NCBI GenBank assembly: GCA_903813345.2
Contig: CAIIXF020000004.1
Span: 25,671,985 to 25,735,984, forward strand
Length of the DNA: 64,000 nt
Source: Owenia fusiformis
Taxonomy: Eukaryota > Annelida > Polychaeta > Sabellida > Oweniidae
Direction: 5' to 3'
Part shown: positions 16,401-50,800 of the stretch, one piece after another
Numbering within the stretch: position 1 is the first letter of the stretch
How the letters are laid out: every line of letters starts with the position of its first letter
Made by a program: the position numbers and the translations under genes
Notes under the pieces: generated by a model
Database searches by the model: none
Seen by the model: the letters and a program-made list of their open reading frames with translations, nothing else
Told to the model about the DNA's origin: nothing

Positions 16401-19400
16401 TCAAACCAATAACTCCCAATTCCATACACAAAAGTTTACGATCGAGTCCTCCTCCCTCCATCCAGTTCTAGCTATATTTCCTAAATCATGTATTTTTGAA
16501 AGAGGGGTTAATAATGTGACTGGAATCATTTATAGGAAGGAGGGCGGCCCAATGCAATATTTAGTCACATCTCAGTTACCTTTCTTTCCATGTCTTGTAT
16601 CTTTGCCACAGCTTTGTCAAGTTCTCTCTGTTTAGCTTCTGTAGCCTAAATATAAAGAGATCCATTGAAAAAAGTAGAAAATGTGATTCCCCTATTATAA
16701 ATAATAATTATGCAATAATTGGATATGAAATTATAAACAGTTTGTTGAGGGGAGTAGTACATATGAAAGTATAGAAAAAATGAAGTAATAAGAATGATCC
16801 ATCCCCTGGACAAAAATCACATGACTTATGTCAAGGCCACGAGGTAACTGAGACTTCATTATTCCACTGAACGTCAAAGAAGTATGACTACTGAAAACAA
16901 CCCACAACCCACCCTTGAACCAAGAAATTTAGGGTAAAATAGATAACAAATAGATAACAATTGAATTGAAGCAAAACAATAAAATATCTTTAGGACTTAT
17001 GATGTCCCACCTTAATTTAATAAGAATCAATAGATGATTAGCCTAATTAAGCTAATTAAGGGTTGTTTCTAAGTAAGTTATGAAACATATCCCTTTAATT
17101 GGGCTAATTAAATTATCATTTAATTGTACTAATTAGGCTGCCTGATGGCAAACTGTTAGAATCAGAATAAATGAAGGATCCACAGTGAAGTTTCTAATTT
17201 CTCCAAAAAATGAGAGCTTAGATACAATTATAGACATAAACTTAATGTACTATATACAACTTAATATGAATAAAGATTTTAATTTGTACTTGTAAACAAA
17301 TGATGGGTTGATTGATGTGCGAATGGATAAACTGATCAACAGTTGGTCAGCTTTTAGCAAGGGGTGGTTCGCTTTTCAAAAAATTCCAGGGGGTTCACAT
17401 TCGACAATTTGCCCAAAACCGATTGAAAAATAGTCAGAATGGTGAAAAACTGCACGATTCTGAACTAATTTTTGGCCAGGCTCAAACCCCCCTGGCTACG
17501 GGACTGAGATGCCTATCCGATCCTAGAAGCAAAAGCTGAGATATTTTACCTTGAGGACTTTTCTGACTCTTTTGTCATATTCCCCCTTGTTGGAGTCCTT
17601 CTGTTCTTCAAGAGCACTCTGTGCATCTAATAGGGCTCCCTTTAACTACAAACAAGAACAAGGCAGTTAACATGCAAAATGTCACCAAATGACTGTATTA
17701 ATATGGGACTTTGCTGATTCTTTTGTCATATTCCCCCTTGTTGGAGTCCTTCTGTTCTTCAAGAGCACTCTGTGCATCTAATAGGGCTCCCTTTAACTAC
17801 AAACAAGAACAAGGCATTAACATGCAAAATGTCACCAAATGACTGTATTAATATGGGACTTTGCTGACTCTTTTGTCATATTCCCCCTTGTTGGAGTCCT
17901 TCTGTTCTTCAAGGGCACTCTGAGCATCTAGTAGGGCTCCCTTTAACTACAAACAAGAACAAGGCATCTAAAATAACCTTTTATGTCATGAGAAATAGTA
18001 AATGAATGATGAAAAAATATTTTCAAACTTTACATGCGGCCTTTTAGTCTAGTTAATGACAAATTGAGTGAATTAACAACGGAATAAAATAAATAGGCAT
18101 GAAGTGAAGACTCTAAAATGTATTTAAAGAATGATGAAAACACATTTTCAAACTTTACATGGGGCCTTTAAGTCCAGTTAATGACAACATTTTCAATAAA
18201 TTTCTAAAGAGAGATTATACGATACCTCGGCAAGTTCCTGTTTATGTTTTTTGTCCTGTTCTTTTTGTTTTTTAGCCAATGCTTTCCTCTCATCTTCAAA
18301 CTTTTGGTACATTGCATCCTCGACATTATTCAACTGCAAAATCAGAGGTTGTGCTTTTAAATGAGAAATATTGAGAAAAGTAGTGGAATCGACAAAGAAA
18401 AAGTTAACAAGTCTACAGTGAAGACTATAAATTGTACAGAAATGCAATAAATCAGGCAATTCACTCAAATTCAAGAGAGAAATTGAGTGAATTAGCAAGG
18501 AATAAAGTAAAAAGGCCCATAGTGAAGACTCTAAAATGTATAAAATGCCAGAAAATCAAATATTCATTCAAATTCTAAATCCAAAGCAAATGTTGTTCCT
18601 TTGAATTAGCAACCTCCCTTACTGCTTATTTCCTACCTGATCTGACAGCTGTTCCTTTAATTTAGCAACCTCCTCACGCTGTTGTAAAATTAGGTCTTTA
18701 TCCAGTTCTATATCATCTTTTAGCTCACCTAGATTGGATGGTTTCCCTAAATGGAAGACAATGAGATGCTTACTATAAAAACTTTTTGAACGACCCTTGT
18801 ATATTCCACGACAGGCCTGTTATTCGATCAAATCGTTCATGGTTATCTAAGCAATTTGATTGGCTGCGAGTATTAAATGAGCTATATAGTTGAAATTTGT
18901 TACAATATTGTCATGTTCTCTATCCCCCATGTTAATAATCCCAGCTACTAATTTTAATGTGAATAATTATGTAGCCTAATTGTTTATGTACTTTTATGTA
19001 TAAGCCTTACTTAATATTAACATAGAGTACATTTATATTTATATTATTTTAATTCTCTCCAAGACATGTAATAAAAACCTGCATATTTCTAGTGATTTAT
19101 ATGCCACAGACAATGTCATGATTAAGAACGAATAAAAGATAAATACAATATATATATCTATATTATCCTATATGAGGTTCAGGATATTGGGATTATCCCT
19201 GCTCAGCCAGGACAGATGTATCCTAGCCGCTGATGAAGATACAACTCTTAACCTCATTTGGATACCTTAAACCCATCCAAGTATGGGATAAATAAAGTAT
19301 ATCCTATGATTTTTGAGGGAAATTATTTTTATCCATGAGTGGACATCACCCATCTACACGAGTGAGCACAGGGATAGCTAGAGAAAATCATAGGATATCC

Positions 19401-22400: not shown

Positions 22401-25400
22401 TGGTTTATGTGCCGCCCGCCCGCACGCCCGCCCAACAGCACAAGACGACGACAATATAGCACTTTTTCAAAGTGCGATAAAAACTCACAACATTGACATG
22501 GAACAGTAAAATATCACAACATTGACATGGAACAGTAAAATATCACAACATTGACATGGAACAGTAAAATATCACAACATTGACATGGAACCACAACATT
22601 GACATGGAACCACAACACTGACATGGAACCACAAAATTGACATGGAACAGTCTCTGGCTATGACCAGTCATATATCAAAAACCAGGACAAATGACTACCT
22701 GGGTTGAAATAGTGAAAATGAGCGAAAATGATGCAAGCAGCAGAAATTATGGAAACTATCTCTAAATTATATAGCCCTTAGGAAAAATGTTATGGGTATT
22801 ACCCATAGTGTTATCCATAATAATGGTAATTCATTAGGTCATTTATGGTTTTTATGTACATAACCCATAGTGTTACCCATAATGTTACCCATAACCAATA
22901 GTTATGGTTAAAACTTACATGTTAAAACAATGATATACTCATAATTTAACATAAGTAGATGTTATGGGCTAAGCATGGTTAGTGACAATGTGTTAATTAT
23001 GTGTTACCCATAAAGTATGGGTACTCTACATTTTCAGCTTTGTTTATATTTTTCTGAAGGGGGAGACACTATTCTAAATAGAATGCTCAACAACATGACA
23101 AATATTTTCATATCATTTAACAAACTAAAAAATTATATATGCATGTTTTGCATTGTAAACTAAAAAAGCCCTAAATACTTAATGGTGTGTATTGAGATAT
23201 AGAATATATTTCAGATAATTTCCCAAAATCTCATTAAACTATTGAACTGTTGTGTTTCTGATGATTGGATACCAATAACCTTTCTTTCAGTATAATTTCA
23301 TTGAAACAAGCAGTACATGTTTTATGAATATTAACAATTCATGTCTTTCTTATACATTAGAATCTTTACTTTTTAAATGTGGCAGTGTTTGCACAAATTC
23401 ACCTTTCAATAATTTAGAAATATTTTTTTGACTCGATCGACCCTGGCTATGTCCCTGACTAGTAAAATATGTGTACATTATGTACAGGTTATGTGCATGT
23501 TATTTGTAGCAATGTGCAAGTCATGTGTAGGTTATGGGCAAATGATGTGTCCCCATAACATACACATAAATTCCAAATAACCTGCACATAATGGCATAAC
23601 GTAAAACCATTATTTACCCATTATTACCCATTATAAGTCATTACCAAAAAACTTAGGTTGGATACGGCATCAATTACCCTTACTTTATGGGTACTTGGGG
23701 GCTATGGGTAACAATATGGGTAGTTATGTGAAACCTAAGGGTTACCCATAACATTTTTCCTAAGGGATACTTGCTAGAGAAATGGATTGTTACATAACCA
23801 GCTGAGGATAATTACAGGTGATGTCTGACAAACATTTTTTATTCTTTTTTCATCTTTTGCTTTAACTTTTTGTTGTTTTCATTATAATTTATTTTTTATT
23901 GAAAATGAAAACTTAATTTCGAAAGTTACCTTATGTTGTTCAGTTTGTTTTATCCTCCATTTTTCCATTTCATTTCTGATTTCTGAATCTCTATTATTGT
24001 CTTTCTCCCCTTCCTGCAACACAAATTTTAAAAGCCTCTAACATTTTTTTCTGCATCAATGTGTATACATTTGCATTTTACAAGACTAAATACAAATTAT
24101 AGCCTCTAACTCACATTCTCTTATTATTTCTGTTTCTTTTTTATTTCAGTACTGTAACACAAATATAAATGGGACAAAATTGTGTAAATGAATTACAATG
24201 GTACCTTATTTTTCAAAGCATTAATTGTATTTTTCTCCTGCTCTAACTGGGCCTGTGTTTGTTTCAGCTGGTCCTGTATCTCCTGCAGTGTATTCCTCAC
24301 CCCAGTATTCAACATTGCTGACTGCTGATTGGTTGAATCTGGCATCCCTGATTGCTGATTGGTTGAATCCAGTTGCATGTTGCCAGGTGAGGTTGCCATG
24401 GATGCATTGTGTCGCCTAGTTACATGAGCGGTAAGGAAGGACGGATTGATGAAGGCTTTGGCACAAAATGCACACTGGAAAATTAGATAAAGCAATATAT
24501 TTATTACAATAAATTACAAGGCAATAAAATGAAAAAAACCTCACCACCTGCCATTTGTTACAGAAGCTGGCCAAACCCCATCCACAAAAACGTTAATAGA
24601 ATTTAACAATATATCTGAATTTTCATCGTTTTTCTTACCTTATGCTAGTATATGGTATTTCTCACTTAATGGTATTTCTTATCTTATGGTATTTCTTTCA
24701 TAATGGTATTTCTTACCTTATGGTATTTATGTGATAGATTCATATTAAGAAAAGAAGAAGTAAGGCAGATGTGGGCAATAAAATATTACAAATTTTATTG
24801 AATTACGTAATGTTACATAATAGTTACAATAAAATAATTTTTGGTTGGGGCAAAAATGCCCGCACATATATGTACATGTGTATAACAATACATGATAATG
24901 AGACAAGGGTGGTGGCTGGGGAAAATGGGGGGAAAAGATTTTTACTATAATATAAATCTATATATATATCATATATATATAATGACTATGAAATCAGTTA
25001 AAATCTATTTTATAAATGTATCGATATCTAGGCTCTAGGCTGTAAGTTGAAATATCTGTGAATGAGACTAGGTAGTTTGTGAAAACAGAAACCCTAGAGC
25101 CTGGAAGATTCTGATTGGTTACTGATGTTAGAAGTTTAAAAGGTTAAATATTGCATCACCACACAAATATCCTAATGAAGCATTAGGGTCATTTATGTGA
25201 TAGATTCATATTAAGAAAAGAAGAAGTAAGGCAGATGTGGGCAATAAAATATTACAAATTTTATTGAATTACGTAATGTTACATAATAGTTACAATAAAA
25301 TAATTTTTGGTTGGGGCAAAAATGCCCACGGAATGCTATATAAACCTTATGGTATTTCTTTCCCTATGGTATTTCTTACCTTATGGTATTTCTTTCCCGA

Positions 25401-28400
25401 TGGTATTTCTTACCTTATGGTATTTCTTTCCTTATGGTATTTCTTTCCTGATGGTATTTCTTTCCTGATGGTATTTCTTACCTTATGGTATTTCTTACCT
25501 TATGGTATATCTTACCTTATGGTATTTCTTACCTTATGGTATTTCTTACCTTATGGTATTTCTTATCTTATGGTATTTCTTACCTTATTGTATTTCTTAC
25601 CTTATGGTATTTCTTTCCTGATAGTATTTCTTACCTTATGGTATTACTTACCTTATGGTATTTCTTACCTTATGGTATTTCTTTCCTGATGGTATTTCTT
25701 ACCTTATGGTATTTCTTTCCTGATGGTATTTCTTTCCTGATGGTATTTCTTTCCTGATGGTATTTCTTTCCTGATGGTATTTCTTACCTTATGGTATGAG
25801 TTAACCCCAGATTGCATCATTTGTTGCTGAGCTGATAACATCTTCTTGCGCTTATGATTTTCTTTCTTCATATCAGCAAGATCTTGTTTCACTTTCTCTA
25901 ATTGATTAATTGTCTCCTCATTCTCCTGCGGAAAAACACAAATGTGGTAAGACAAGGTATTAACCTGATAAAACAGGGCTCTAGCTAGGCTTTTAGATCG
26001 TGGTGCAGCACCACAGTCTATTTAGCTCCCACCACAACTTATTGAAAAATCATTATTGTTCCGACAGTCTAAACTCCACTGGATACAGAATAATGGCATG
26101 AGAAAAGGATTGTGAACATAGATATGATTTATCTTGATTAAACAATTACGCTGAAGATGTTTTCATCACAGACTAAATATTTCCTGGTGAGAGCACTGCA
26201 AAATGTCACCATTGGAAATTTGGCTAATAATTTCAAGTCACAAACATTTGGGTGATAACAATATGTCACCACTACTTAACTATAATAACATAACAAGGCA
26301 TCAACATAAAAATGACACCACCTGCCATTTGCTACAGATGCTGAATGCCAAATGCCGAACACAGTCCAGCAAAAAGTTGGAGACTAACAACATGGCACCA
26401 CTTCTTGGTTATAACTAAATCAGGATGTTGAAAAATGACGAATAAATAATCAACTGCCCATAAAAATTAAATTGTTCATGTCTATGTGTAATGTATGATG
26501 ACATAAACTTACATGTTGGGACTGTTTGAGCTTATCTTCTACCTGAGCAGTGTTTGTCGAAAGGAACTCTTGTGAATGCTGAAAATAAACAGGTGTATGT
26601 CAAATACTGAAAAAACCTGTATGTACATAATGAATGTATTTTTTTAAAGTTCATTTATTGTATCTTATTTCAACATTTTTCTTATTGCACCTCTTTTTGT
26701 TTTTTCATTTTACAAATTCATTCGTTCCTGTGTTTGTTCATGCGCACATTCATTCATGTCTGCGTGGATTCATGCGTGAGTTCGTTCGTTTGTAAGTCAT
26801 ATTACAAATACATTTACAATCACATTTTGCATCATTAAGAATATCATAAAACAGTGTCAAAGATTTTACAAAATTTTGGGGAAAATATTGTTTCCATTGT
26901 TATCCGTTTCAATAAAAAGTTGTGAATGAAATATTTTTTTAACAAGTTATGAATGAAAAATATTTATACATAAAGGCCCTTACCAGTAAATATTCTATGG
27001 TTAACTGAGCAAGCTTGAACAGCTTCACAAAGTTTGGATCCACTGAGCCCATGTCCTAAAAACAAAATGACTCGTTAAAACAAAAATATATACTTTTTAA
27101 AACAAAATATGCTTCATAAAATAAAATAAATCTCACTTAATAAAATATACTTAATAAAATAAAATGTACTCATTAAAATAAATGTCAATTTCACATTTTA
27201 TTAATTTAATTGAATTAGCGAGCGGACGACATTGAACTTGGTTTAAGCTGTAAATATTGAAATTCAGCTTCAAAAATGTCAAAATATATTGCATTGGTAA
27301 TATTAAGTATAAAACATATTACAAGGTTCATGTATATTTCCCCTTTAGCATTGTTAACTTTGACTAGAGGCAAATTGTTACATGGATGCTGTAACACTTT
27401 CTTCTAGCTAAAATCTACAATATATGCATGAATTATTTCATTTTACACATCCACCATCTTGATCCATCAAAGTATTATTACATGACTGAAGGAGTACATT
27501 GGTTTAACAGTATAGTATGCATATCTACACAATCAAGTATTCAAAAATTAAGGAAATGACTGAACAGTAACCTCTCTAACCTCTCTAAGCAACTGGCACT
27601 GGCAAAAAATGTTCAGATGAACAAGTGTTCACATAACACAGTTTTTGACAATGTGGGTCCAGGTAACATTATGGCTATGGCTATTATGACATTATGGCGA
27701 TGGCCAGGTTGATTGCAATTTGATGGCAAACTCAGCCCCGTAGCTAGGGGGGGGGGGGCAAAAATTATTTCAAAAGCATGCAGTTTTTCACCATTCTGAG
27801 CACTTTTTAACTGATTTTGGCTATTTTTGGACCAAAATTGTCACAAGTGAACCCCCCTCGAAATTCTTCAAAAACTGAACCTCCCTTGGCAAATCCTGGC
27901 TATGGGCAAGATAAGTTTTATTTATATTCGTTTGAGTGTAACGAATTAGAATATAAATTATTTCTACATATTACTACAGAGTGTAGCTTTAAGTGTTACG
28001 AAAATCGAACGCTATTTTCGAATGCGAGTAGAATATGAGTGAGTGAATACGTGTGTAGTGTTTAGGAGAGACGAAATCATTCTGGCTACGTCATCTATAC
28101 AGTGAACACCTTATCCATATTACACGTGGACATTACACAATGGACCCAATAGACATGAGTCAACCAGCCTCACTACAAAGTGTTAGCACCTTGCTTACCC
28201 AAGAATTTGGGAAATTCCGAAAGCATTTGCGAGAAGAAACAGAGGAAAACAACGCTAAATTGCTAAAAAAGATGAAAACAGATGAAGAAAACAGTACACC
28301 ATACGTGTTCAAGAAAAAGGGCAACAAAATTCAACACGAGTTTAATCTTAAGCTGAACCTTAAGGTGAAAGTCTGCTTCCAGACTACTACAGACGCACTA

Positions 28401-31400
28401 GAGCGCGCGAGCGAAGCTGACCCCGACAAAGTGAACGATTTATTGCAAGAGGCTCACGACTCAGCTATGAAAGGTATTGATTTTCTTACATATAGAAATA
28501 AGTTGGTAAAACTAGCTGATACATCCAACGCAGGATGGAAAACTGTAGATGAATACGATAAAAAGCCATTGGCTAATGACAGTGACGATGATAAACGGAT
28601 AAGAACAGCCGATCGAGATGCAGTACGCAAAATGAGATCGTCAAATCGATACCGTTCTTCTCGTAGATTTTCTAGTTTCAGAAGTCGCAGAGGCCAATAC
28701 AGAGATGATCAACAACGCGACAGCTACTTCAAGCAGGGGCACAGTTACGCATCAAATCGCGGATATGGGTACGAAGGACGCTATTATCCACGTGGAGCAA
28801 GCAAGTTCAGACCAGGTGGTTGCTGGGCGTGCGGCGAAATCGGGCACTGGGCAGACACGTGTACCAAAAGGAACCAAACAGAATCCAGTCGTTAGTCGTA
28901 GCACAGTAGAAAAGTTAAGTACAAACACTTCTGAAATCTTGAAAGACCTGGGAAACAAAATTCATGTAAAGGGTAATTTAAAGAGGCATGCACAGTTTTG
29001 GTCACATATAAATGCAAACAGTTACGTTTTAGACATCGTAAAAACGGTTATAAAATTCCTTTTAGAGAAATTCCGACAGAAGCGTTTTTGAAAAACAATA
29101 GGTCATCTCTAGAAAATACAGAATTCGTGGTAAAAGCTATTCAAGAATTAGAATTACTGGGGTGTGTAAAGGAAGTTCAAGAAAGACCATGGGTCGTTAA
29201 TAGCAATCAATTCGAAGGGGAAGAAACGTTTAGTTTTAGACATGAGGCACACAAATGATTACATTTCCTTAGACAAATGCAAATACGAAGATTTATCAAC
29301 CGCAAAAAATTATTTGAAACAAGGCAAAAAGTTAATCTCGTTTGATATCACTGCGGGATATCATCACATTGATATTTGCGAAGCACATCAAACCTTTCTG
29401 GGGTTTTCATGGGAAATTTGTGGAATACAAAAGTTTTACAAATTCACAGTACTGCCATTTGGTATTTCAACGGGAGGTCTCGTTTTCACAAAATTGATGA
29501 AAAGTTTGGTTTCACACTGGAGATCATTGGGGCTTCACATTGTAGTATTTCTTGACGATGGCCTATGTGTATCAGAAAACACAGAACAGTCTAGAGCAAA
29601 CGCATTTCGCATTCAAGCAGGCCTAAAACATGCTGGGTACATAATCAATGAAAAGAAATCTGAATTTGAGCCTAAAGATTCATTGATACGGTTAGGGTTC
29701 GAGCTAAACATGAATGACGGAAAAATCTATGTCCCCACGGAAAAAATTAGCGATTTGAAATCAAAAATTGTCAATTTAATGAAACAAAGGTTCGTAACCT
29801 ACAGACAAATAGCCGAAATAGTAGGCAAAATCATGTCTATGATGCATGGTATTGGCAAAATATGTCAATTACACTTATGTTAAGCAGTGATCTTTTAGTT
29901 TAGGAAAAGCCGGTGACCTGCTATCAGCTGCTGCAGAATGTAAACAAAGCCTGCATAGCTGACTACCACTAAAGCGCTAATGTGTAACTTGACCTTTTTA
30001 ACATTGCTGGCATTGTGTTGCTATTATAAGACAGCCACTTGCTTGTGAGATGTAACTAGGATTAGGGTTTCCCAATTTTGGGGGTAGTCTTAGTAAAATA
30101 TGTCTGGGGGGCGTTTGCAGGAAGGGATCAAAACAATTCTTTCAATCCTGCATAGGCAAGACAATTCTCTAAATGAACAATTTTGAATCAAGTTGATCCC
30201 TTCCTGCAATTTTGAGAGGTTTAATGTTCAAGTTGCCAGAATGTTCAGAGAGAATACATTTATTAACTAACCAGCCTGTCATCAAGGTGCTTTAATCTGA
30301 TAAACTTTCACTCAAATTAAGAGAAACCCTGGAAACATTAGAGGAAGGTGTAGTACTTTCACAAAGTGTTAATTTCAAGACCCAACTCAGTATTAATTAC
30401 AAGCTGTAATACTATTTTTAAGATGATCACACATTTTAGATACCAAAGAGTTTCTGTGTAAGCATTAGGCCATATGGTGGGAAATCCTAGCAGTGACGTC
30501 ACTCACTAGCTGATAAGACCAGCTTGAGTAGCATTAAGTGCACTAACTAAAAGTTCGTTTACAGGCCAGCATAACATAAGTGATTAATGACACGATGTTT
30601 AAGTATGAAAACAGTAGGCATAACAAAATGGGAAAACAGCACAATACTGTCAAATTCAGATATTACAGAACTAGAATTTTGGTTGAATGAAATCGAAAAG
30701 TATAACGGCGTCGCGTTAATCTCATACACCGTGCCAGAGAAATTCGTGTATTCAGATGCATCAAGCACTGCAGCCGCGGGCTATGAGGTAGAACTAGAAT
30801 CGAACAAACAACAACCTTGTTATCTAAAATGGTCAGAATCAGAAAAGCTCAAAAGTTCAACTTGGCGTGAAATGAAAGCAGTAGAAATTGTTTTGAAATC
30901 TTTCAAACATAAAATTGAGGGCAAGTCGGTAAACTGGTCAACAGATAACAAAAACGTTTGTAGCATAACTAGCAAGGGTAGCATGGTTAAAGAATTGCAA
31001 ACTTTAGCATTGAGCATTTTCCAAGAATGTATCAAATCAAAGATTGACATGGTCTTTCAATGGGTACCTAGAAATCAAAATCAAGAAGCTGATTTAATGA
31101 GCAAAATGTTGGATCCAGATGACTGGGAAATACAGCCACATATTTTCAAATTATTGAATAGTAGAAACGGACCTCATACAGTCGATCGTTTTGCTAGCAT
31201 AGAAAATACACACTTAGAGAGGTTCAATTCAAAATTCGCACAACCAAACGCGGAGGCAGTCGATGCTTTTAGTTGTAATTGGGGAAAAAGAAAATAACTG
31301 GTTGGTACCTCCAATACAAGATATAGGAAGAACGATAAAGCATTTAATAGCATGTAGAGCAATGGGCACATTGATTGTACCGTGTTGGAAATCATCGTAT

Positions 31401-34400
31401 TTTTGACCACTTATTTCCAAAGCTGGCAATTTCAAAGCTATAGTCGTGGATCACGTTGAATTTGGGAATCCAATGAAAGTGTATAAACGAGGCAGTTTCA
31501 ACAATACTATATTTGGATCTGAAAAGCTCAAATCGCATGTTTTAGCACTGCGCTTGAACGGAAAACTATTTTAGAAGATTAGTCCATTACTAGTTTATCA
31601 AAAACACCGAAAGTACGAAGACAGCCTTGAATGTATGGTCAAAATAGTATATACAATTTGATTTTTATATCTTATAGCATCTAGTCATTATATTCCTCTT
31701 ACAGACAACATTAATATACGTATGCGTGCCACGGCAATCGTGTAAAAAATATTAGGCTTATTTATAGACAACAAACTATATCGGAAATAAAGGCAACTAA
31801 TTTAAAGTCACCGTAGGCTCATTGTATATGACAAACTTACGCTAAACAGGGATGCCAATTGCCACCCTAGGCTTAAAACGTATAACCACCAATTATGTTG
31901 CTTACGTCGCTTAAAACTTATATCCACCATAGGCTCAAAACATATAACCATCGTAGTTTTAAAAAACGTATAGCCACCGTAGGCTCAAAACGTATAGCCA
32001 CCTTAGGCTCAAAACGTATAGCCACCGTAGGCTGGCTCAAAAACGTATAGCCATCGTAGGCTCAAAACGTATAGCCACTGTAGGCTCAAAACGTATAGCC
32101 ACCGTAGGCTCAAAACGTATAGCCACCGTAGGCTCAAAAACGTACAGCCACCGTAGGCTTAAAACATAGCCACTTAGGCTTAAAACGTATAGCCACTGTA
32201 GGTTTAAGACGTTTAAACACCGGATATTTTTAAAGAACGAATGGTCACCGCAGAATCATATAACGAATAGCCACTGTATGGTTAAAATATATCAATGACA
32301 CGGGCAGTAAGTGATAGCAAACGTATCTTTATTAATGATAACATCTTGCTGGAAATATGCGAAGAATACAAATAGACACTGTAAGCATATACGTCATTCT
32401 GCTAATTCAGACATCTTTTTCTGTTTTAATTGTTATGTTGTATGTCGTTATGAGAAATAAAGAGTACGGTGAATACAAATTATGCACACCAAAAAATACA
32501 TACACATAATATAAGTTTGAATATAATACCATGTAATTTATCTAAAAAATGTTTACGTACATATTTATAGACAACTTGTTTATGTTTATGTCATATGTAA
32601 TAGTATATTTTATATCAAATACATGTACACGTTTCATATTATGTTTGTCCTTTGTGAATATCTGTTAATTTTAGAAACTGGATGAAAGCTTCGATTGGTT
32701 GAATTCTGTGAAAGATATTGAGCACCGAAGAAGCAGAATACCCCCGTTGTTCAAGTAATTGAAATATTATCGATTGTAAAAATTTTACAGGTATACTCGG
32801 AAGGCTCTCGAAAGACGACATTGACGGAAAACGAGCAGCAATAGAAGCTGATAAAAGAATTGTAAAAAATAAATAAGAAATGCATGCATAATTACGTGTT
32901 TAAGTTTTCTCAGTAAGAAAAACAATTGTAATATGATCAAAAAATTCCAGGATTGTTGAAACGGGCATGGACAATATGAAAACAATAGAAGACCCACAGT
33001 TAAAAATACTATCAAAACAATTAATGGTTGAAATCGTCAACTCCAGTAAAAGCGACAACACAAAGAAAAAATATACATTTTACTTCGAAAAGTGGACTTG
33101 ATGGTCTAACATTTTCCCCGAAGTCAAGGACATTCCTGCTGAACCAAGGTATATCGCAATATTCTTGTTAGCTCAACTACAAAGTGGATCATCATATCAT
33201 GTTTTGAACTCTTTACGCTCAAGCATTAGCTGGGCGCACAAATGTGCAGATTTACCAGATCCATGCTGTTCATCATCACTAACATAATAGAGGCAGCAAA
33301 ACGTCAAACTAGCAAACCTGTTCAGAAAAAAGAACCCATAAAAGCAAGTATGTTGACTCAATTAGTTAACAACATGTCCAAGGACAATTCACTTAAGAAC
33401 TTGAGAAACGTCACTCTTTGCGTGTTAGGTTTTGCTGGGTTTTTACGTTATTCCGAATTAGCACACATAACCGTAGGTGACGTTTCATTTGACGAAATGT
33501 ATTTTACAATAAACATTCCACAATCCAAGACAGATGTTTATCGAAATGGAAATTCAGTTGTGATTGCAAAAACTGGTAACATAACATGCCCATATAATAT
33601 TTTACAAAGTTATTTAAAGGCTCTTGATCCCAAGAACTTGTTATCAAAAGACCAATATATTTTTAGAGGGTTGTCTCGCAAGAAAGATGGTAGTTTTGTA
33701 GCAAGGTCCCCTAACAGAATGTTATCTTACACAACAGTCAGAGAAATTGTGTTAACATCCATCAAGAGTATTGGTCTCAATCCAAAGCTTTTCGGTGTAC
33801 ATTCGTTAAGATCAGGAGGCGCCACAACGGCGGCCAACAGTTCAGTTTTAGAGAGAAATTTTAAACGACATGGTCGTTGGAAGAGTGAGACCGCAAAAGA
33901 TGGATATGTGAAAGACGATATTATAAGTAGATTGGGAGTTACCATGAAACTTGGTCTATGAATGTTTGTAATGAAATATTCTCAATAAAATGTTTAAAGT
34001 TAAGAGTACCGTTGTTAAAGTAACGTGTCAAGAAGCCAACTCTTTCTCTAGATTTTCTGTAGCGAGATGCGACCTCTAGCCAAAGCTATTTTTAATATCT
34101 AATGAGTTTCATGTTATTTAAAAGCGCAACGCTTTGTAATGTATAGAAGTTTTATTTATATTCGTTTGAGTGTAACGAATTAGAATATAAATTATTTCTA
34201 CATATTACTACAGAGTGTAGCTTTAAGCGTTACGAGAATCGAACGCTATTTTCGAATGCGAGTAGAATATGAGTGAGTGAATACGTGTGTAGTGTTTAGG
34301 AGAGACGAAATCATTCTGGCTACGTCATCTATACAGTGAACACCTTCTTAAACGTCATTGCAGGTTAAACATGTTCAACGTTCGATAGGTTCCATGCATT

Positions 34401-35930: not shown

Positions 35931-35954
35931 CTGAAAATAGACATACATTGGCTA

Positions 35955-38765: not shown

Positions 38766-38773
38766 CCGGAAGT
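38766..38773 (+). promoter_or_regulatory. ETS-type motif CCGGAAGT
   Basis: CCGGAAGT stands 63 bp upstream of the DNAJC3 start codon and 10 bp before the ERSE. Such motifs are common in housekeeping and bidirectional promoters. Short motif, so support is limited. Confidence 0.4.
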
Positions 38774-38783
38774 GAAATTTGGA

Positions 38784-38802
38784 CCAATCAGATTCCACCA
38801 CG
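38784..38802 (+). promoter_or_regulatory. ER stress response element (CCAAT-N9-CCACG) of DNAJC3
   Basis: CCAATCAGATTCCACCACG matches the ERSE consensus exactly: CCAAT, nine bases, CCACG. It ends 34 bp before the DNAJC3 ATG. In vertebrates ERSEs bind NF-Y with ATF6 or XBP1 and drive unfolded-protein-response genes, of which DNAJC3 is one. Perfect spacing at the right gene makes a functional element likely. Its closeness to the ATG implies a very short 5' UTR or a start site nearby. Confidence 0.8.
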
Positions 38803-38836
38803 ATACATTCGGTAGTACACATCAGCTAAAGCAGCG

Positions 38837-41800
38837 ATGAGGGAGGTGTGGAGTTTGTACCGTTTTATAACGTCTCTACCGTTATTCTACTTCGCTTTAG
38901 ACTTTCAAATAGATGGTAAGTGGTTAATGAATATATGTAGCATATTATCTGTAAATTTCATTGATTTTTATCTTCGAGGTTTTGAGAAAATTGACTTTGA
39001 AATTGAAGAATATGCGTCAGATTTTAGAAATGCATTTTGACATTCACTCATCTCAAGTCATATCCTTCAAGTCTTTGTCTATAGGAATTTACTACATTTA
39101 TGTGTGTAATATTCAAATACCAGGCAGGAGCGTCGGACCATATTTGAAAAGGGGGGGGGGGGTGCGTTTTTCAGAAAATATAGGGGAGGGGGGGTTACAG
39201 GGTTCACCTAGTATGTATCCAACAGACCGAATATAATATTCGGTCTGTTATGATTGATATATTTCCTGTGGAAATCGCGGTGATATTTTTTGCACATTAA
39301 TTTCTAGTTTATTATAAGAATGTTCACCTTGAAAATTGGTGAATATGTTGAAGAGATGTTCATCTTAAACTAGAAGCAAAAATATTTGTATAAGGCGGGT
39401 ACAAGTTGATATAAAATAATGAAATGTTCAGACTCACCGAAACTTCAGGATGTGTTCATAAGTAGATCGCGAAATCAATGTCAAGGACGTTTGAGTTCAC
39501 GAGATCCAAACGAGATATGCAAATTTTGAACTTTGACAACACATGACCACTTGATTACCTCGGCCTTCTTCATGAATATTTCCGCTCTATTTACTATTAA
39601 TGAAGAAAATTAATCGGGATAATGATAATAAATGACTAGATCTAATAAATTCCCGCACAAATGGAATTTAGCAATACGCTTCCGTAATGTTGCTCCCGCT
39701 CCACGTGTTATTTGTTTACAAATAGACTGACGTCACTGGCTAAATCTCGTTTATCGTGAGAATTGGCATTGCCAAAATGGCTTGACCTAATCAATGGCTT
39801 CGCTACAAGAAGCGTCTGTACATTTTATGAATATCTTCAGTAAGAGGACAATATACGAAAAAATAATATTGTGAGTTCTTTATAAGGTAATCATTCTATC
39901 ATTAAACAAACTTATTTGTAACATTTATACAACACCACATTTTACAATAGGTGACTTACAGTCTGAATATTTATTCAGACGAAGGATACAGTCTAAGGGT
40001 TCACCCCTGGGAAATTTATATGGTGCATTCACCTCTATTACCTTCATATAAAGATAAAAAATTGAGAAAGTGTTGGGCTTAAAGGGCTTAAAAAGACACA
40101 TTAGCTTAGGGCCAAATCGATTTCTAAAACAAACAAATGTCATTGAATACTTCTTTCAATTACAACAGTTGACATTATTCATTGATAAAATTTGTTTTGA
40201 AACAGTTTGGTCCGATTCCCTCATTTAAGACATCAACCGATTTTCCTTATAGAACTGTTCCATGTACAATCCCCTACTGATCAGTTAAAAAACAGATTTT
40301 TTCAGCAAAAAACTGAAGCTTTTTAATATGTTTTCTACAGGAAGTGACGCAAGCGCTCAAGATGTTGAACAGCATCTTGAGATGGGGAAGAAAATGTTGG
40401 CTCAAGGTGCCCTTGCTGATGCCCTGTCACACTTTCATGCTGCTGTAGGTAAGTCTGTCACACTTTCATTCTACTTTGTGTATTCTGTCACACTTCTATG
40501 ATGTTGAAGGTGAGTCTTTCACACTTTCATTCTACTTTGGGTATTCTGTCACACTTCTATGATGTTGAAGGTAAGTCTGTCACACTTCCATTCTACTTTG
40601 GATATTCTGTCACACTTCTATGAAGTTGAAGGTAAGTCTGTCACACTTCCATTCTACTTTGGATATTCTGTCACACTTCTATAAAGTTGAAGGTAAGTCT
40701 GTCACACTTCCATTCTACTTTGGGTGTTCTGTCACTTCTCTATGATGTTGAAGGTAAGTCTGTCACACTTCCATTCTACTTTAGAATAAGTCACATTCAC
40801 ATTTCCATTGTACTACATTGAGGGAAATGTTGTCACATTCCTTGCTGATGTGTATGTCTATTTTATTTACTTCTATGCTACTGTGTATAAGTCCGTCACA
40901 CTTGCATGCCACTGTAGGAGTGTAGGTCAGTTTGTCACACTTTCATGCCGATATATTTTAGCTCATTCTGATGTATATGATTAGAAACTAGTAATTTTGC
41001 ACCCGTGTCCATCTCCATCAGTCTCTCTTTAGGAATTATGGCCATGAGACTCAGTATTTCAGTGAATACCTGGTAAGTAATTGTTTATAATACAACATAC
41101 TGCTGTGATAAATAAGGGTTATGTACTGGGAGGTTTTGGATATGGGGTTTATCCAGAGGGAGATATGCATATCTACCTGAGGGACCGTAGGGACCGAAGG
41201 TAGATGTGCATATCTCACGAGGGATGAACCCAATATCCAAACCGACCGTACATAACTGCTTTATCCTATACCAAGTAGAGTTTTCAGGGGCATATGGCCA
41301 TTTCAATAGTGCAAGGTGTATGCAATGTCATTTTATTGCATTTCCACTACTTACCGGAAGCGGGGAGATATGCACCGAAGCGGGAAGATATGCACCGAAG
41401 CGGGAGATATGGAGGTTGGAAACTTCAAAATCAGGATACGGGATATATCTTACCAACTTATCTCCCTAAAACTCTACTTGGCATAGGATAAGGGATGTTA
41501 TGCACCAATATACAGTTTTCAAATATCAGAAATCTTGTATTGCAAAGACCTGAGGGTGCCCTTGGGGAAAACACATACTAATGTAATTAAATAATCAGAT
41601 AACACAGAAATTAATTCATGTTATATTCAATGCCCTATGTGGATATCAAACCTAGTCACATGCTCAATCCTAGGTCTTCCTAGTATGTTATATATATTGT
41701 ATAACAATGATTGTATATAATGCAGGGGTTTCATTAGCAGCAGGCAACTGGTGATTTTCACCGGTTGTTTTCACAAAATTGCCTGTTGTTTTTAGGAACA

Positions 41801-44800
41801 TTTCAATGTTAAATTTATAATTTTGCCTGTTGTTTTCATTTATTTAGCCTGTTGTGAAAAATTCTAGTAAAACCCCTGTAATGTATAATAATTTTATAGT
41901 GAAATAAAATGAAAATAATTTATAGAAGGTCTTTTACAGGGGAAAGTTGAACCCTTTGGATAGTTATTAATTAATTAGCCTTACTAACTGCTGGAACTGT
42001 TTTAAGTGTTGTACTATGTAATCGTTTTTTCACAGGCTTGTCTAATTTATTTCTACATTTATTTATAGATGGCGATCCGTCCAATTACATGACATATTTC
42101 CGAAGAGCAACAGTTTATCTGGCCATGGGCAAATCTAAATCGGCACTTCCTGACCTTAAGAAGGTTATTGAATTGCGGCCAGACTTCCATGCAGTAAGTT
42201 GGTTTCTCTTTAGTTTTACTTGAAAAGCCCCTGTGAAGTAGCCACATGTATAATCTAATGCGTTCTTCCCAGGATTTTTTAAAGCATGTATAGTGAAACC
42301 TGTAAAGTGGAACACCTATTTCAAGAGTCCCAAGCCCACCTGAGACTTAATGTTAAATGAACCTCTATATGTGGAACACCTCCAAAGTGGAACACTTTAT
42401 CGATTACTAAAGGTGTTCCACTTAGACAGGTTTTACTGTATGTGTATTCTAAGTTGTGTCAGAAATAGTTACAATAACCAAAATTCATGCACAGTAAAAC
42501 CTGTAAACATTGATCACCTATGTAGCCACAAAAGTATTCACTGTAGGTAGGTGTTCACTGCATGCAGAGAGGAAATTTTATACAGGAGTGAATGTAAAAT
42601 GTGTCTTGAATTGATGTCCATGTACAGGTGTTCACTAGAGAGAAATGTTCACTAAGACAGGTTTTACTGTAAATAAAAACACTATTTATATGTCAGAGAA
42701 ATAATAGAACAAAAAATAACATCACAGATTTGGACTGTATAGTTATTCACCTGAAACCGTTTATTGTTGTTCATGAACATTAAAAATTAGGTTATGCCCA
42801 TATACACCTAAATCTTGAATTACTGAACTTATTCTTTTTAGGCCAAGCTACAGAGAGGAGGTGTTCTTTTAAAGCAGGGCAAACTAGATGAGGCAAAGAA
42901 AGACTTTGATGATGTTGTAAGTACACATGTACGCTTTCTAATAGAGTTTTGATGATGCTGTAAGTACACATGTACTCTTTCTAATAAAGTTTTGATGATG
43001 TCGTAAGTACACATGTACTCTTTCTAATAAAGGTTTGATGATGTTGTAAGTACACATGTACTCTTTCTAATAAAGGTTTGATGATGTTGTAAGTACACAT
43101 GTACTCTTTCTAATAAAATGGATTGCGTGAGTGTTGAATTTTTTTTTCTGGGTTCTAAAAATTTTCGGGTGAATTACCCTGTTCAGGTAATACTTTCAAA
43201 GTGAAACAGACTTTTGGTGAGCTAAAATCAAAAAGTAATGATAAAAACTGTTGTTTTTTCCAGTTGCTAGCAGACCCAGGAAACGCAGGAGCAAAGAATA
43301 ACCTTGACAACATTGAGGCAGTGAAACTGATGATAAAAGAAGGAAAAGAGGCTTATGAAAACAATGACTTCCAACATGCAATAGATACACTACATACTCC
43401 AATTGATGTAAGTTATTTTTGAATTCCATTGATTATAAAACTTCATTTGAGAGTTTTAAAATGTTCAGCATCATAACTCTTAAATCACCTTTAATTGTGA
43501 GAGGGTAGTGTGACTAGCTGTAGGGCTTCAGGGTAGATCAAAACTATATTTACATTTTTGGTTTTTATGTCCACACTACAAGTGATGACATATTGTTAGT
43601 ATCCAACTTTTTTGTGGATGGTGTTCGGTATTTGGCAATTAGTGTCTGTTACAAATGGCAGGTGGTGACATTTTGCAAGTTAATGCCTAGTTTGCCCAAG
43701 TGATTCAGAGTTCTTTTCAGCAGAACTTTCAGCATCATCTTTTTATTTTTCAGCTTTGCCCATGGTACGCTGAGTTGCGTGAGATCCGTGCGGAATGCTA
43801 CATCGCCCAGGGTGACCTCTTCAAAGCTACGTCAGACATCAGAACAACAACCAAACTTATTAATGACAATACTGATGGCTATTATAAGCTTAGTAAACTC
43901 CATTATGACATGGGCGAGGCTGATGAATCTCTTATGTAAGTTCTTCACTCATTGGCTATTATGGCTATTATAAGCTCAGTAAACTCCATTATGATATGGG
44001 TGAGGCTGATGAATCTCTTATGTAAGTTTTTCACTCATTGGCTAATATAAGCTTAGTAAACTCCATTATGATATGGGCGAGGCTGATGAATCTCTTATGT
44101 AAGTTCTTCACTCATTGGCTATTATGGCTATTATAAGCTCAGTAAACTCCATTATGATATGGGCGAGGCTGATGAATCTCTTATGTAAGTTCTTCACTCA
44201 TTGGCTATTATAAGCTTAGTAAACTCCATTATGATATGGGCGAGGCTGATGGATCTCTTATGTAAGTTCTTCACTCATTGGCTATTATGGCTATTATAAG
44301 CTTGGTAAACCCCATTATGATATGGGAGAAGCAGATGAATCTCTTATGTAAGTTCTTCACTCATTGGCTATTATGGCTATTATAAGCTTAGTAAACTCCA
44401 TTATGATATGGGCGAGGCTGATGAATCTCTTATGTAAGTTACTCACTTATTGGCTATTATAAGCTTAGTAAACTCCATTATGATATGGGGGAGGCTGATG
44501 AATCTCTTATGTAAGTTCTTCACTCATTGGCTATTATAAGCTCAGTAAACTCTATTATGATATGGGCGAGGCTGATGCATCTCTTATGTAAGTTCTTCAC
44601 TCATTGGCTATTATGGCTATTATAAGCTTGGTAAACCCCATTATGATATGGGAGAAGCAGATGAATCTCTTATGTAAGTTCTTCACTCATTGGCTATTAT
44701 GGCTATTATAAGCTTAGTAAACTCCATTATGATATGGGCGAGGCTGATGAATCTCTTATGTAAGTTCTTCACTCATTGGCTATTATAAGCTTAGTAAACT

Positions 44801-47800
44801 CCATTATGACATGGGAGAGGCCGATGAATCTCTTATGTAAGTTCTTCACTCATTGGCTATTATGGCTATTATAAGCTTAGTAAACTCCATTATGACATGG
44901 GCGAGGCCGATGAATCTCTTATGTAAGTTCTTCACTCATTGGCTATAATGGCTATTATAAGCTCAGTAAACTCTATTATGATATGGGCGAGGCTGATGAA
45001 TCTCTTATGTAAGTTCTTCACTCATTGGCTATTATGGCTATTATAACCTGAGTAAACTCCATTATGATATGGGCGAGGCTGATGAATCTCTTATGTAAGT
45101 TCTTCACTCATTGGCTATTATGGCTATTATAAGCTCAGTAAACTCCATTATGACATGGGCGAGGCCGATGAATCTCTTATGTAAGTTCTTCACTCATTGG
45201 CTATTATAAGCTTAGTAAACTCCATTATGATATGGGCGAGGCTGATGAATCTCTTATGTAAGTTCTTCACTCATTGGCTATTATGGCTATTATAAGCTCA
45301 GTAAACTCCATTATGACATGGGCGAGGCCGATGAATCTCTTATGTAAGTTCTTCACTCATTGGCTATTATAAGCTTAGTAAACTCTATTATGATATGGGC
45401 GAGGCTGATGCATCTCTTATGTAAGTTCTTCACTCATTGGCTATTATGGCTATTATAAGCTTAGTAAACTCCATTATGATATGGGCGAGGCCGATGAATC
45501 TCTTATGTAAGTTCTTCACTCATTGGCTATTATAAGCTTAGTAAACTCCATTATGATATGGGCGAGGCTGATGAATCTCTTATGTAAGTTCTTCACTCAT
45601 TGGCTATTATGGCTATTATAAGCTTAGTAAACTCCATTATGATATGGGCGAGGCTGATGAATCTCTTATGTAAGTTCTTCACTCATTGGCTATTATGGCT
45701 ATTATAAGCTCAGTAAACTCTATTATGATATGGGCGAGGCTGATGAATCTCTTATGTAAGTTCTTCACTCATTGGCTATTATGGCTATTATAAGCTCAGT
45801 AAACTCCATTATGATATGGGCGAGGCTGATGAATCTCTTATGTAAGTTCTTCACTCATTGGCTATTATGGCTATTATAAGCTCAGTAAACTCTATTATGA
45901 TATGGGCGAGGCTGATGAATCTCTTATGTAAGTTCTTCACTCATTGGCTATTATGGCTATTATAAGCTCAGTAAACTCCATTATGATATGGGCGAGGCTG
46001 ATGAATCTCTTATGTAAGTTCTTCACTCATTGGCTATTATGGCTATTATAAGCTCAGTAAACTCCATTATGATATGGGCGAGGCTGATGAATCTCTTATG
46101 TAAGTTACTCACTCATTGGCATATTCAAGATTCAGGCAGCCATGAATCACCCATACATTTGATGCTGTTCACTCGTATGACCATGGATTGCCAATATGTT
46201 TATGTTGAAAATAGACCGTGATTCCCAAAGTAATAGGAATGTTTTGCTTCATTTAAAAATGTCACTCTCACGCTGTCATAAAAATGTCAACTTGGAAAGT
46301 TTAAATTCTTCAAAAATATGTAAATTCGACACAGTCAGGCAAATGGTCCATACATTGGATGTGGCCAGGCAGCTATAAAATCACCCATATGTTTGACACT
46401 GTCAGATGACCCCATTTTCCCCATCCATCTGATGCAATCAGGCAACCATAATTTCCAATACATTTGATGCTGTATGATAGTATAATCATAGATAGCCCAT
46501 ACATTTCATGTTATAAATTGACCATGGATCACCTAGTAACAAGAACGTTTCTAGCATAAATTTTTAAGCTTAAGTTTTTCCGAGAGAATTTCAGCGAGCA
46601 AATCAAATTAAACCAGATCATTTCTTCATCATTCAATGAAATTGTCATTAAGTTGACATTACTTTATCTTCTGCAATAATGAATTTATCTTTTGTTTTCC
46701 AGACAAATCCGGGAATGTCTTAAGCTAGATCCAGACCACAAAGCTTGTTTCCCATTTTACAAAAAAGTGAAAAAACTTGTAAAACAAATGGACAGTATCC
46801 AGAATTTTAAAAATGAGCAGAGATGGGATGATTGCACTAGTAAAGCCAAGTCTATGTTACAAACAGAACCTGACGCCTTCCATTATGTTATGAGGGCTAA
46901 ATCACATATGTGCCATTGTGAGTCTAAGGTGAGTTTTCATTGGTCTAGGTATATTACAATTTGTAAGATGCACTCTCATTGGTCTTGATATGTGCATATT
47001 TGTAAGGAGAGTTCTCATTGGTCTAGGTATATTACAATTTGTAAGAAGCACTCTCATTGGTCTTCATATGTGCATATTTGTAAGGAGAGTTCTCCTTGGT
47101 CTAGGTATATTACAATTTGTAAGATCCACTCTCATTGGTCTTAATATGTGCATATTTGTAAGGAGAGTTCTCATTGGTCTAGGTATATTACAATTTGTAA
47201 GAAGCACTCTCATTGGTCTTAATATGTGCATATTTGTAAGGAGAGTTCTCATTGGTTTAGCAAAACTAAGTCTATGTAACAAACAGAACCTAATGCCTTC
47301 CATTATGTTATGTGGACTGATTCTAAGTTTGACTTAGGGTGTAATACTATATACAATCAGAAAGAGCAAGCCACGGCTTTTGTAGAACGCAAACACACCA
47401 AAAAACAAGAAAAGTGTCAATGATGTTTTCACACTTTGTAATGATATTTTGTAGTTAAGAAATATAGACCAAAGACCAGAGGTATTATATTGATGAATAA
47501 ATACCGCAGGGCGAGGCACAAACTTCAAGAGAATTTAGAGAGAAATAGAGTGAAATAGGCATCACCAGAAGAAATAAGAAATTTCATTTTTGATTTTTAT
47601 ACTTGTAGGCTGAACATATTAAAGAAGCTTTCGAGCATTGCAATGAAGTCCTAGGAATGGATGAAAACAACATAGAAACATTGTGTGATAGAGCTGAAGT
47701 TTATCTAGTTAATGAACAATACGATGAAGGTGAGTCATTTAGAGATTCAACTTTTTAACCAACCGGGTTCAATCTACAGGGGTCTGATAATTAGAGAAGG

Positions 47801-50800
47801 GTCGGTCATGGTTCGGTTCGATTAACCGTGGTTTTTGGCCCGAGAGGATGAACTGAGAATCGTACCAAATCGAACCGTGACCGACCCTTTTCTACTGATT
47901 ATAGTTGGGGGACCTAGCGCTTCTGGCTCACATGGTGAGTGTCTGGAATCCCTAGCTGCCAACTAACCAAGTAGTCCAACCTACAAGATCTGATTTAATT
48001 GGGGGTATCTCCCTAGGAATTTCCAAGGGGGATGCGACTACATTTCATTTCAATTGAGTTATGATTATCTCACACAGACACCATAGGGCATACACGTGTG
48101 GTAGGATAATGTAACTTGATGTCTGAAGGTAGAAAAGCAGTTCCCCGTATTAATCTGACAGGAACTCGTATCTTTATCTTGGCTAGAACCATAAGCAGTT
48201 CAAGCCAGCACAGGCCTTTTATCGAGTTAGTATATTCATTTGAGTTACATATGATATCTCAAAAAGACACCATAGAGCATATACATGTGGTAGGATAATG
48301 TAACTTGATATCTTAAGGTAGAAAAGCAGTTCCCCGTATTAATCTGACAGGAACTCGTATCTTTATCCTGGCTAGAACCATAAGCAGTTCAAGCCAGCAC
48401 AGGCCTTTTATCGAGTCAGTTGCACTGGTTACACCTAAAAAACAACAACAGAAAACAGTCGCCATCATCAAAGCTTGCTTGTACTGAAGCACATAGTTTT
48501 CTTATCTCCTATTAGCACCATGAATGAAATCCTCAGAGAATATTATCTCAAACAAAAATTTGGCTTAAAAAGGGCATGCAGCCACACCTGTGGGGATTAA
48601 AAGACTGTACTTATCCCAAAAACTGAATGACAAGTTCCTTTGCACACTTTGGATAGTTTTAATAAGATGAAATTCACAGTTTACTGACTTCATTTATGAG
48701 AAATACAACTTAAAATTTTTTTTATTGTTTTTTGTCTTATGTAAAATATGTTATTTATATTATATAATAATGAATTGCCATAATTTTGCTTTCATAGTTA
48801 AGTTAATTTCAAGAAAGTGAAAATCATAGTTCACTGATTTTATTTTGTGTATTTTTTTGTCTTATGTAAACTATGTTATTTATATTATATAATACTAAAT
48901 TGCCATAATTTTGCTTTCATAGTTAAGTTAATTTCAAGAAAGTGAAAATCATAGTTCACTGATTTTATTTTGTGTATTTTTTTGTCTTATGTAAACTATG
49001 TTATTAATATTATATAATACTGAATTGCCATATTTTTGCTTTCATAGTTAAGTTAATTTCAAAAAGTGAAAATCATAGTTCACTGATTTTATTTTGTGTA
49101 TTTTTTTGTCTTATGTAAACTATGTTATTTATATTATATAATAATGAATTGCCATAATTTTGCTTTCATAGTTAAGTTAATTTCAAGAAAGTGAAAATCA
49201 TAGTTCACTGATTTTATTTTGTGTATTTTTTTGTCTTATGTAAACTATGTTATTAATATTATATAATGCTGAATTGCCATAATTTCGCTTTCATAGTTAA
49301 GTTAATTTCAAGAAAGTGAAAATCATAGTTCACTGATTTTATTTTGTGTCTTTTTTGTCTTATGTAAACTATGTTATTAATATTATATAATACTGAATTG
49401 CCATAATTTTGCTTTCATAGTTAAGTCAATTTCAAGAAAGGTAAAATCACGGTTCACTGATTTTATTTTGTGTATTTTTTTGTCTTATGTAAACTATGTT
49501 ATTTATATTATATAATAATGAATTGCCATAATTTCGCTTTCATAGTTAAGTTAATTTCAAGAAAGTGATTTTATTTTGTGTATTTTTTTGTCTTATGTAA
49601 ACTATGTTATTTATATTATATAATAATGAATTGCCATAATTTTGCTTTCATAGTTAAGTTAATTTCAAGAAAGTGAAAATCATAGTTCACTGATTTTATT
49701 TTGTGTATTTTTTTGTCTTATGTAAACTATGTTATTAATATTATATAATACTGAATTGCCATAATTTCGCTTTCATAGTTAAGTTAATTTCAAGAAAGTG
49801 AAAATCATAGTTCACTGATTTTATTTTGTGTCTTTTTTGTCTTATGTAAACTATGTTATTAATATTATATAATACTGAATTGCCATAATTTTGCTTTCAT
49901 AGTTAAGTCAATTTCAAGAAAGTGAAAATCATGGTTCACTGATTTTATTTTGTGTATTTTTTTGTCTTATGTAAACTATGTTATTTATATTATATAATAA
50001 TGAATTGCCATAATTTCGCTTTCATAGTTAAGTTAATTTCAAGAAAGTGATTTTATTTTGTGTATTTTTTTGTCTTATGTAAACTATGTTATTTATATTA
50101 TATAATACTGAATTGCCATATGTTTGCTTTCAGCTATAAATGATTATGAAAAAGCCATAGATGTAGATAACAACAATAACAGAGCGAAAGAAGGGTTAGA
50201 AAGAGCCAAAAAATTACTCAAACAATCGCAAAAAAGAGATTATTATAAAATATTAGGCGTAAAAAGGTAAAAATAATTTCTTCATATAATAAGATATAGG
50301 GGGGGAGAAGAACAGGCTGATAAAATGGGAGTCAATGGGGCATAAATGATAGATTGGATTTTAATCATGTACATAGGAAGGTGAGGGCTTAGAGTCACAA
50401 TGTTTGTGTGAAAACATGCCTTATTCAATTCTGAGAAAAGTCAGAAAGTTTTAGGTCAAGAGACCAACCACGAAAAAAGTTCCTTAGGACCATCATTGCC
50501 TTTCTCAAAACAACCAAATTAAGAGAGAAAGTAACAGTTTTTACAGGCACATATTCATTAACAAAACTGCATTTACCAATTCATTAACAAAACAGCATTT
50601 ACCTATTCATTCATTCACCTTACTATCATACCCAATAATGAATAATTATATTTTCTCGTATTTTTCACTTTCAGAAATGCTAGGAAAAAGGAAATTATAA
50701 AAGCTTACAGAAAACTTGCCATGGAGTGGCATCCTGATAAATTTGAATCTGAAGAAGAGAAAAAGAAAGCAGAGAAAAAATTTATGGATATCGCATCCGC

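Follow-up and report, generated by a model that had tools for sequence, protein, structure and literature searches.

Tandem copies of exon edges and splice sites in two neighbouring genes of the annelid Owenia fusiformis, and their likeness to amphioxus mirages

Introduction

A stretch of 64,000 nucleotides (nt) from the genome of Owenia fusiformis, a marine annelid (contig CAIIXF020000004.1, positions 25,671,985 to 25,735,984; hereafter the window, with positions counted from its first base), carries two neighbouring genes, DNAJC3 (P58IPK) and DZIP1, and raises the question of why tandem arrays should lie at several of their splice junctions. An initial annotation, made from the letters of the window, had listed seven such junctions, and proposed that splice junctions act as seeds of repeated amplification. 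The answer favoured here, to which a probability of roughly two in three can be given, is that an annelid here carries “mirage” minisatellites, arising by random tandem duplication in repeat-rich introns and tolerated at donors, where the outermost donor keeps an intact exon. Tandem copies of exon edge and splice site lie within the intron next to them. Each junction has a unit of its own, unrelated to the others, and young layers are found together with decayed ones.

Results

DNAJC3, a stress-response gene, occupies 38837–51984 (+), with arrays at four of its donors and a fifth array that abuts an acceptor. Its 11 coding exons splice into an open frame of 490 amino acids (aa) with a single terminal stop, and the model is 100% identical, over its full length (490 aa), to a public NCBI O. 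fusiformis protein, in keeping with the source of the window; it also matches the DNAJC3 of PDB 2y4t (E 3e-155). The arrays leave the coding sequence of this model unaffected. DZIP1, at 9471–35926 (-), was modelled with 16 exons; two of its donors and one acceptor are affected, the acceptor by an array. Its first 450 aa match Pfam Dzip-like_N (E 3.4e-37), and 426 of the 427 residues of a public Owenia DZIP1 model match that of the window, which is open over 625 aa, exons 12–16 being based solely on frame and splice signals. With the PDB entry, Pfam and the public Owenia proteins in agreement, both gene names given by the initial annotation are correct.

Arrays were called with Tandem Repeats Finder (TRF), and the exon models gave the positions of the junctions. 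At the donor of DNAJC3 exon 2, TRF and a listing of copies revealed an array at 40424–40782 (+), with a unit of 61 base pairs (bp) that holds the last 25 nt of the exon and GTAAGT. The unit is a composite of 31 and 30 bp, the donor sitting in the 31-bp half, and by eye the exon copy is unlike the donor-type copies. Deeper in intron 2, at 40893–40955 (+), local alignment and inspection by eye recovered older, degenerate copies of the same junction. The first (~40893–40923) agrees with the exon copy at 21 of the 24 positions aligned, a score equalled in none of 500 shuffles, and the second, extending to ~40955, was recognised by eye. The older copy still resembles the exon, from which the young array lying between the two has, by eye, diverged; this order of divergence suggests that this junction may have been amplified in at least two rounds.

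The donor of exon 4 is followed by five copies of a 43-bp unit at 42905–43117 (+), which includes 12 exon nt and the donor, with GTAAGT retained in all five. Exon and intronic copies agree at 95.9%, against 97.3% among the intronic copies, giving little sign that the copy at the boundary escapes homogenisation. The highest copy number is reached at the exon 6 donor (43875–46125, +), where an 86/77-bp unit holds 61 exon nt and the donor. TRF reports 27.0 units of 86 bp, CTCTTATGTAAGT can be counted 27 times, and GTAAGT is present in all 27; here the figures are 96.3% (exon and intronic copies) and 95.6% (among intronic copies), with no sign of escape at the boundary. Selection on these copied donors was considered, and no change was seen at positions -3 to +6 in 26 copies, a result given no weight because copies without an intact TTATGTAA had been filtered out beforehand, and because no more than 13 of the 76 columns vary.

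From the exon 7 donor, an array at 46925–47260 (+) has a period of 78 bp, made of 2 x 39 bp, and includes 4 exon nt; its units have no donor GT, with GGAGAGT in place of GGTGAGT. Past the array, at 47258–47318 (+), an exon-edge search found the tail of exon 7 (46838–46898) copied in degenerate form, with 87% identity over 61 nt (0 of 500 shuffles as good); this copy is absent from the TRF list. Exon 7 is thus a weak example of a boundary-spanning repeat, resting on 4 nt, accompanied by a ghost copy. The array at the exon 9 acceptor of DNAJC3, of 125-bp units at 48728–50132 (+), stops 1 nt short of the exon, contains no exon bases and does not span the boundary.

In DZIP1, the donor of exon 5 carries an array of a 17-bp unit (25344–25797, -), characterised by TRF and motif counts, which holds the donor and 10 exon nt by TRF, or 16 in the BLAST cluster. 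The motif AGGTAAG occurs 14 times and AGGAAAG nine times. Another patch of the same 17-bp repeat lies further along the intron (24651–24728), with two copies of a ~150-bp segment between it and the array. At the exon 9 donor, the exon-edge search and local alignment identified a degenerate two-copy duplication of the exon tail across the donor (18594–18673, -): exon positions 18650–18673 are copied at 18594–18617, with 92% over 24 nt and 0 of 500 shuffles as good. This case had been overlooked by TRF, by the tile test described below and by the initial annotation. Together with the older exon 2 copy and the exon 7 tail of DNAJC3, it confirms that the duplications themselves exceed chance, each of the three degenerate cases standing at 0 of 500 shuffles.

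The acceptor of DZIP1 exon 11 presents a different arrangement, in which a 150-bp unit at 17555–17967 (-) repeats the acceptor and most of the exon three times and includes 91 exon bases. The exon is present in three near-complete copies, of which copies 1 and 2 run into stops and the last continues into the modelled donor; exon definition would select this last copy. The public Owenia DZIP1 protein (427 aa) ends within this array (17550–17967, -), where the window permits the 625-aa model, and its end, ...RVSKVL, has the serine of copy 1, the last copy reading RVRKVLK. A single splice from a GT donor that could produce this end was sought, and none was found within 9 kb. The array seems to disrupt the annotation or the splicing of DZIP1, through either an annotation fault or real mis-splicing.

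All seven arrays of the initial annotation were therefore recovered by TRF at the expected junctions of the exon models. Its description of them as adjoining or including the junctions stands for five that include donor-side exon bases and one that spans an acceptor, with the DNAJC3 exon 9 array 1 nt short, and its periods hold with the refinement that the 61-bp unit is really 31+30 and the 78-bp unit 2 x 39. The events do look independent, as it had argued, since TRF finds that units and genes differ; a single repeat family spread across the junctions was rejected on the differing unit lengths and sequences.

A local-alignment scan compared the 25 donors and 25 acceptors of both models with their own introns, using 300 shuffles for each. 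Exon-tail copies were found at 6/25 donors (DNAJC3 exons 2, 4, 6 and 7, DZIP1 exons 5 and 9) and exon-head copies at 1/25 acceptors (DZIP1 exon 11), each with 0/300 shuffles. Two further results among these 50 junction comparisons were marginal and were not counted, namely the DZIP1 exon 13 donor (p 0.007, with a gapped, weak alignment) and the exon 16 acceptor (p 0.04). In the controls, where exon ends were compared with the upstream intron and exon starts with the downstream intron, 2 of 50 fell below 0.05: the end of DZIP1 exon 11 against its upstream intron, which is the exon 11 array, and the start of exon 10 against the intron that follows it (p 0.02).

The background against which these copies occur was measured with 30-nt tiles, a tandem copy being defined as at least 23/30 matching positions within 600 nt; a single shuffled sequence, sampled in the same tiles, yielded none. 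Such copies accompany 27.8% of deep-intron tiles (n=6666), 7.7% of exon tiles (n=813) and 1.9% of intergenic tiles (n=1035), with donor-spanning tiles (17.2%, n=151) and acceptor-spanning tiles (5.3%, n=150) both below deep intron. The introns are array-rich, and donors share in that, acceptors much less. By junction, five of 24 donors and two of 24 acceptors were positive, the second acceptor being that of DNAJC3 exon 9; the DZIP1 exon 7 acceptor and exon 11 donor were also flagged at 21/30, close to the shuffled level, and were not counted.

Other features of the window include a satellite array at 1–8027, starting at the window edge, with 71 copies of a 113-bp unit at 96% matches (TRF). Within DZIP1, and on the opposite strand, intron 15 holds an open reading frame (ORF) of 662 aa with RING and B-box domains (TRIM-like; 10242–12230, +), and intron 2 holds retroelement-like ORFs (28140–33961, +) with a zinc knuckle and reverse transcriptase, together with weaker matches to RNase H and to the phage-integrase family (tyrosine recombinase), the latter slightly below the Pfam cut-off. 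This last match suggests a DIRS-like element. By eye, a dispersed tandem repeat (ATTTGAATGAAGTGTCTGATTTTCTTGC...) has similar units at 18373–18575 (DZIP1 intron 9), 53319–53703 (beyond the end of the DNAJC3 coding region) and ~55390–55690. An ORF at 57148–59043 (-) matches the Pfam STELLO glycosyltransferase domain (E 4e-36).

Discussion

The initial annotation regarded amplification at existing junctions as an undescribed process, a view that does not survive comparison with amphioxus, in which the same structures have been published as mirages (in the available text of PMC3087553 and PMC3902484). The name was applied to duplicated intron/exon boundaries, minisatellite-like in form, in the globin genes of amphioxus, following earlier work on amphioxus Adh; as far as the available part of that report goes, regular splicing is apparently undisturbed, and the duplications were suggested to be raw material for intron gain (PMC3087553). 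PGBD5 is added as a further case, with troponin C cited, in what is accessible of that article (PMC3902484), and the genes named across the accessible portions of the two are Adh3, the globins BflGb6 and BflGb9, troponin C and PGBD5 (PMC3087553, PMC3902484).

What those portions describe, and what Owenia has in common with it, is a tandem repeat running across exon-intron boundaries, both 5' and 3', and the amphioxus units are roughly 10–160 bp, with AG/GT signals in many, not all, copies (PMC3087553, PMC3902484). In Owenia the unit spans the exon-intron boundary at the donors of DNAJC3 exons 2, 4 and 6 and of DZIP1 exon 5, and at the acceptor of DZIP1 exon 11, with DZIP1 exon 9 represented by a decayed pair. 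Both 5' and 3' boundaries are affected (6/25 donors, 1/25 acceptors), and the splice signal is present in many copies but not in all, having been kept at exons 4 and 6, mixed at DZIP1 exon 5 and absent at exon 7. Owenia differs in its phylum, Annelida, in the concentration of six affected donors and one affected acceptor within two neighbouring genes, and in reaching up to 27 copies. Mirages are also expected to vary in length between alleles or in somatic cells, and to keep the copy at the boundary out of homogenisation, which may be so at the exon 2 donor, judged by eye. In the literature searched, uses of the word in other subjects being left aside, no report of mirages outside amphioxus was found, papers on Owenia itself were silent on the point in their accessible parts and, as far as these searches reach, the Owenia arrays are mirages in a new phylum, at high local density and with a lean to donors.

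Two further groups of cases are related more distantly. Tandem duplication of a segment with splice-site sequence is reported for potato RdRp, ATP2A1 and fission yeast, in the part of the source available (PMC4974935). The Owenia duplicates likewise contain splice sites, but lengthen pre-existing introns, with no new intron shown. Human repeat-modified genes in segmental duplications, in the excerpted account (PMC2812944), have variable repeats at an exon-intron boundary that alter the exons or introns of recently arisen paralogues, whereas the Owenia DNAJC3 coding sequence is unchanged.

How such structures could accumulate may be pictured as follows. Short tandem duplications would originate across repeat-rich introns through replication slippage or end-joining, followed by unequal exchange. 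Those internal to exons would alter the protein and be purged by selection. Duplications straddling a donor could persist, as the first copy would preserve both the exon and the donor beside it, the extra copies landing in the intron. The outermost donor would stay in use through exon definition, the orphan copies downstream being ignored by the spliceosome. Copies straddling an acceptor would place decoy AGs upstream of the true acceptor, the last in the row, and would be less often tolerated.

Several features of the window fit this scheme. Tandem copies accompany deep-intron tiles more often than exon tiles (27.8% against 7.7%), and copies of exon edges were found at 6/25 donors and 1/25 acceptors. 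Different units occur at unrelated junctions, and the decayed copies at DNAJC3 exons 2 and 7 and DZIP1 exon 9 show layering; in the accessible text, the amphioxus precedent likewise combines such repeats with undisturbed splicing (PMC3087553). An in-frame stop precedes the first copied donor at DNAJC3 exons 2 (stop at 50 nt, copy at 61), 4 (33, 43) and 6 (1, 86), and at DZIP1 exon 5 (81, 85); use of a copy at these four junctions would therefore truncate the protein, and a full-length product needs the outermost donor. The public DNAJC3 protein is that of the model with outermost donors alone. It is presumed to stem from the Owenia genome annotation, which, by the available part of its description, drew on RNA-seq and splice-junction hints (PMC9977687).

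Other observations weigh against this interpretation. The stop-first pattern fails at DNAJC3 exon 7 (GTAAG at 34 nt, stop at 57) and at DZIP1 exon 9 (GTA at 14, stop at 15), and the public DZIP1 model stops inside the exon 11 array, so normal splicing there is not assured. Nor do the arrays at donors fall quite as chance would have them. As self-BLAST clustering overlooks small arrays, TRF calls were taken for the statistics, their rows being merged by hand into 24 loci, and in a shift test the exon map was moved along each gene with the arrays fixed, an array counting if it crossed the junction and included at least 4 exon bases, at three TRF score cut-offs. Donors are crossed by five arrays against 1.04–1.42 expected (P 0.0028–0.0096), which pure random placement fails to explain. 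A random-unit model, in which each unit is dropped at random wholly within an intron or across one junction, points the same way: 1.35 of 23 arrays would be expected to cross a junction, the entirely exonic locus at 51909–51948 being excluded, and six do (P 0.0012). The lean to donors, which the tolerance scheme would predict, is itself not significant, with a Fisher two-sided P of 0.098 for 6/25 donors against 1/25 acceptors, and 0.42 for 5/25 against 2/25.

All these enrichment figures are post hoc, coming from two genes in a window chosen for its pattern. For acceptors, the shift test gives one crossing array against 1.07–1.45 expected (P 0.67–0.78), and for donors and acceptors jointly six against 2.11–2.87 (P 0.013–0.062). 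By gene, the random-unit model gives P 0.0046 for DNAJC3 alone and 0.093 for DZIP1 alone, and the shift test in an earlier version yielded 0.001–0.13 and 0.25–0.52, respectively, depending on the criterion. That version, like the exon-edge search, BLAST clusters and tile test, used an earlier 15-exon DZIP1 model in which the start of exon 15 was 5 nt off; the final shift test, random-unit model and local-alignment scan used the corrected 16-exon model. Donor enrichment beyond chance is present and modest. The proposal that junctions act as seeds accordingly holds in part, for donors, modestly and post hoc, and does not hold for acceptors, for DZIP1 alone or in base-level density.

It is this enrichment that speaks for the strongest alternative, a donor-biased mutation in which 5' splice-site boundaries are hot spots of tandem duplication, for example through co-transcriptional DNA damage at U1 binding. 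Five donor arrays stand where 1.0–1.4 are expected, with acceptors at expectation; within DNAJC3, four of the six arrays with a TRF score of at least 300 include a donor and a fifth adjoins an acceptor; and the exon 2 junction was apparently amplified in at least two rounds. The counts remain post hoc and confined to two genes, the DZIP1 values quoted above are unremarkable, and at base level the density at donors is lower than in deep introns. Nor do stronger donors seem to attract arrays, the six with copies matching the consensus at 6–8 of 9 positions and the other 19 at 5–8. This explanation is unlikely, though it deserves to be kept in view, and the same doubtful standing applies to its broader form, in which donors across the Owenia genome would be true hot spots, a sizeable share of them (here 6/25) bearing present or decayed copies of their own junction, replenished time and again from the exon copy under constraint, and acceptors would not.

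A regulatory role is a good deal harder to credit. Rows of decoy donors and pseudo-exons would capture U1, adjusting intron retention or the decay of the DNAJC3 transcript, an idea suited to the exon 6 array, where CTCTTATGTAAGT occurs 27 times in 27.0 TRF units, and to the early stops that use of a copy would bring at four junctions. Units so young and so similar would, however, be expected to have unchanged donors in any case, and the figure of 26 copies without change came from copies pre-selected for intact TTATGTAA. Moreover, the exon 7 copies have no GT, and AGGAAAG makes up 9 of the 23 motifs counted at DZIP1 exon 5.

Still less probable is that the arrays represent the first step of a Rogers-type gain of introns or exons by tandem duplication, as proposed for amphioxus globins. 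That model is already published, in the available text of two sources (PMC3087553, PMC4974935), and it could draw on the donors or acceptors present in the copies and on the three near-complete copies of DZIP1 exon 11. The copies seen here lengthen existing introns, with no new intron seen in the window, and the first two exon 11 copies hit stops. The copy number of long arrays is hard to assemble, which lends something to an artefact of long-read assembly, the least probable explanation of all in the face of scattered private differences and layered divergence among copies. The published Owenia assembly, from which the window is presumed to come, combined PacBio reads with Illumina polishing, by the accessible part of its description (PMC9977687).

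Conclusions

Probably products of random duplication in repeat-rich introns, tolerated where the outermost donor keeps the exon intact, the Owenia arrays belong beside the mirages of amphioxus. If mirages prove common in both an annelid and amphioxus, they would be a widespread by-product of minisatellite-rich genomes and no amphioxus oddity. They would also be a natural experiment in how the spliceosome passes over as many as 26 nearly identical donors that follow the real one, and would provide raw material for new splice sites.

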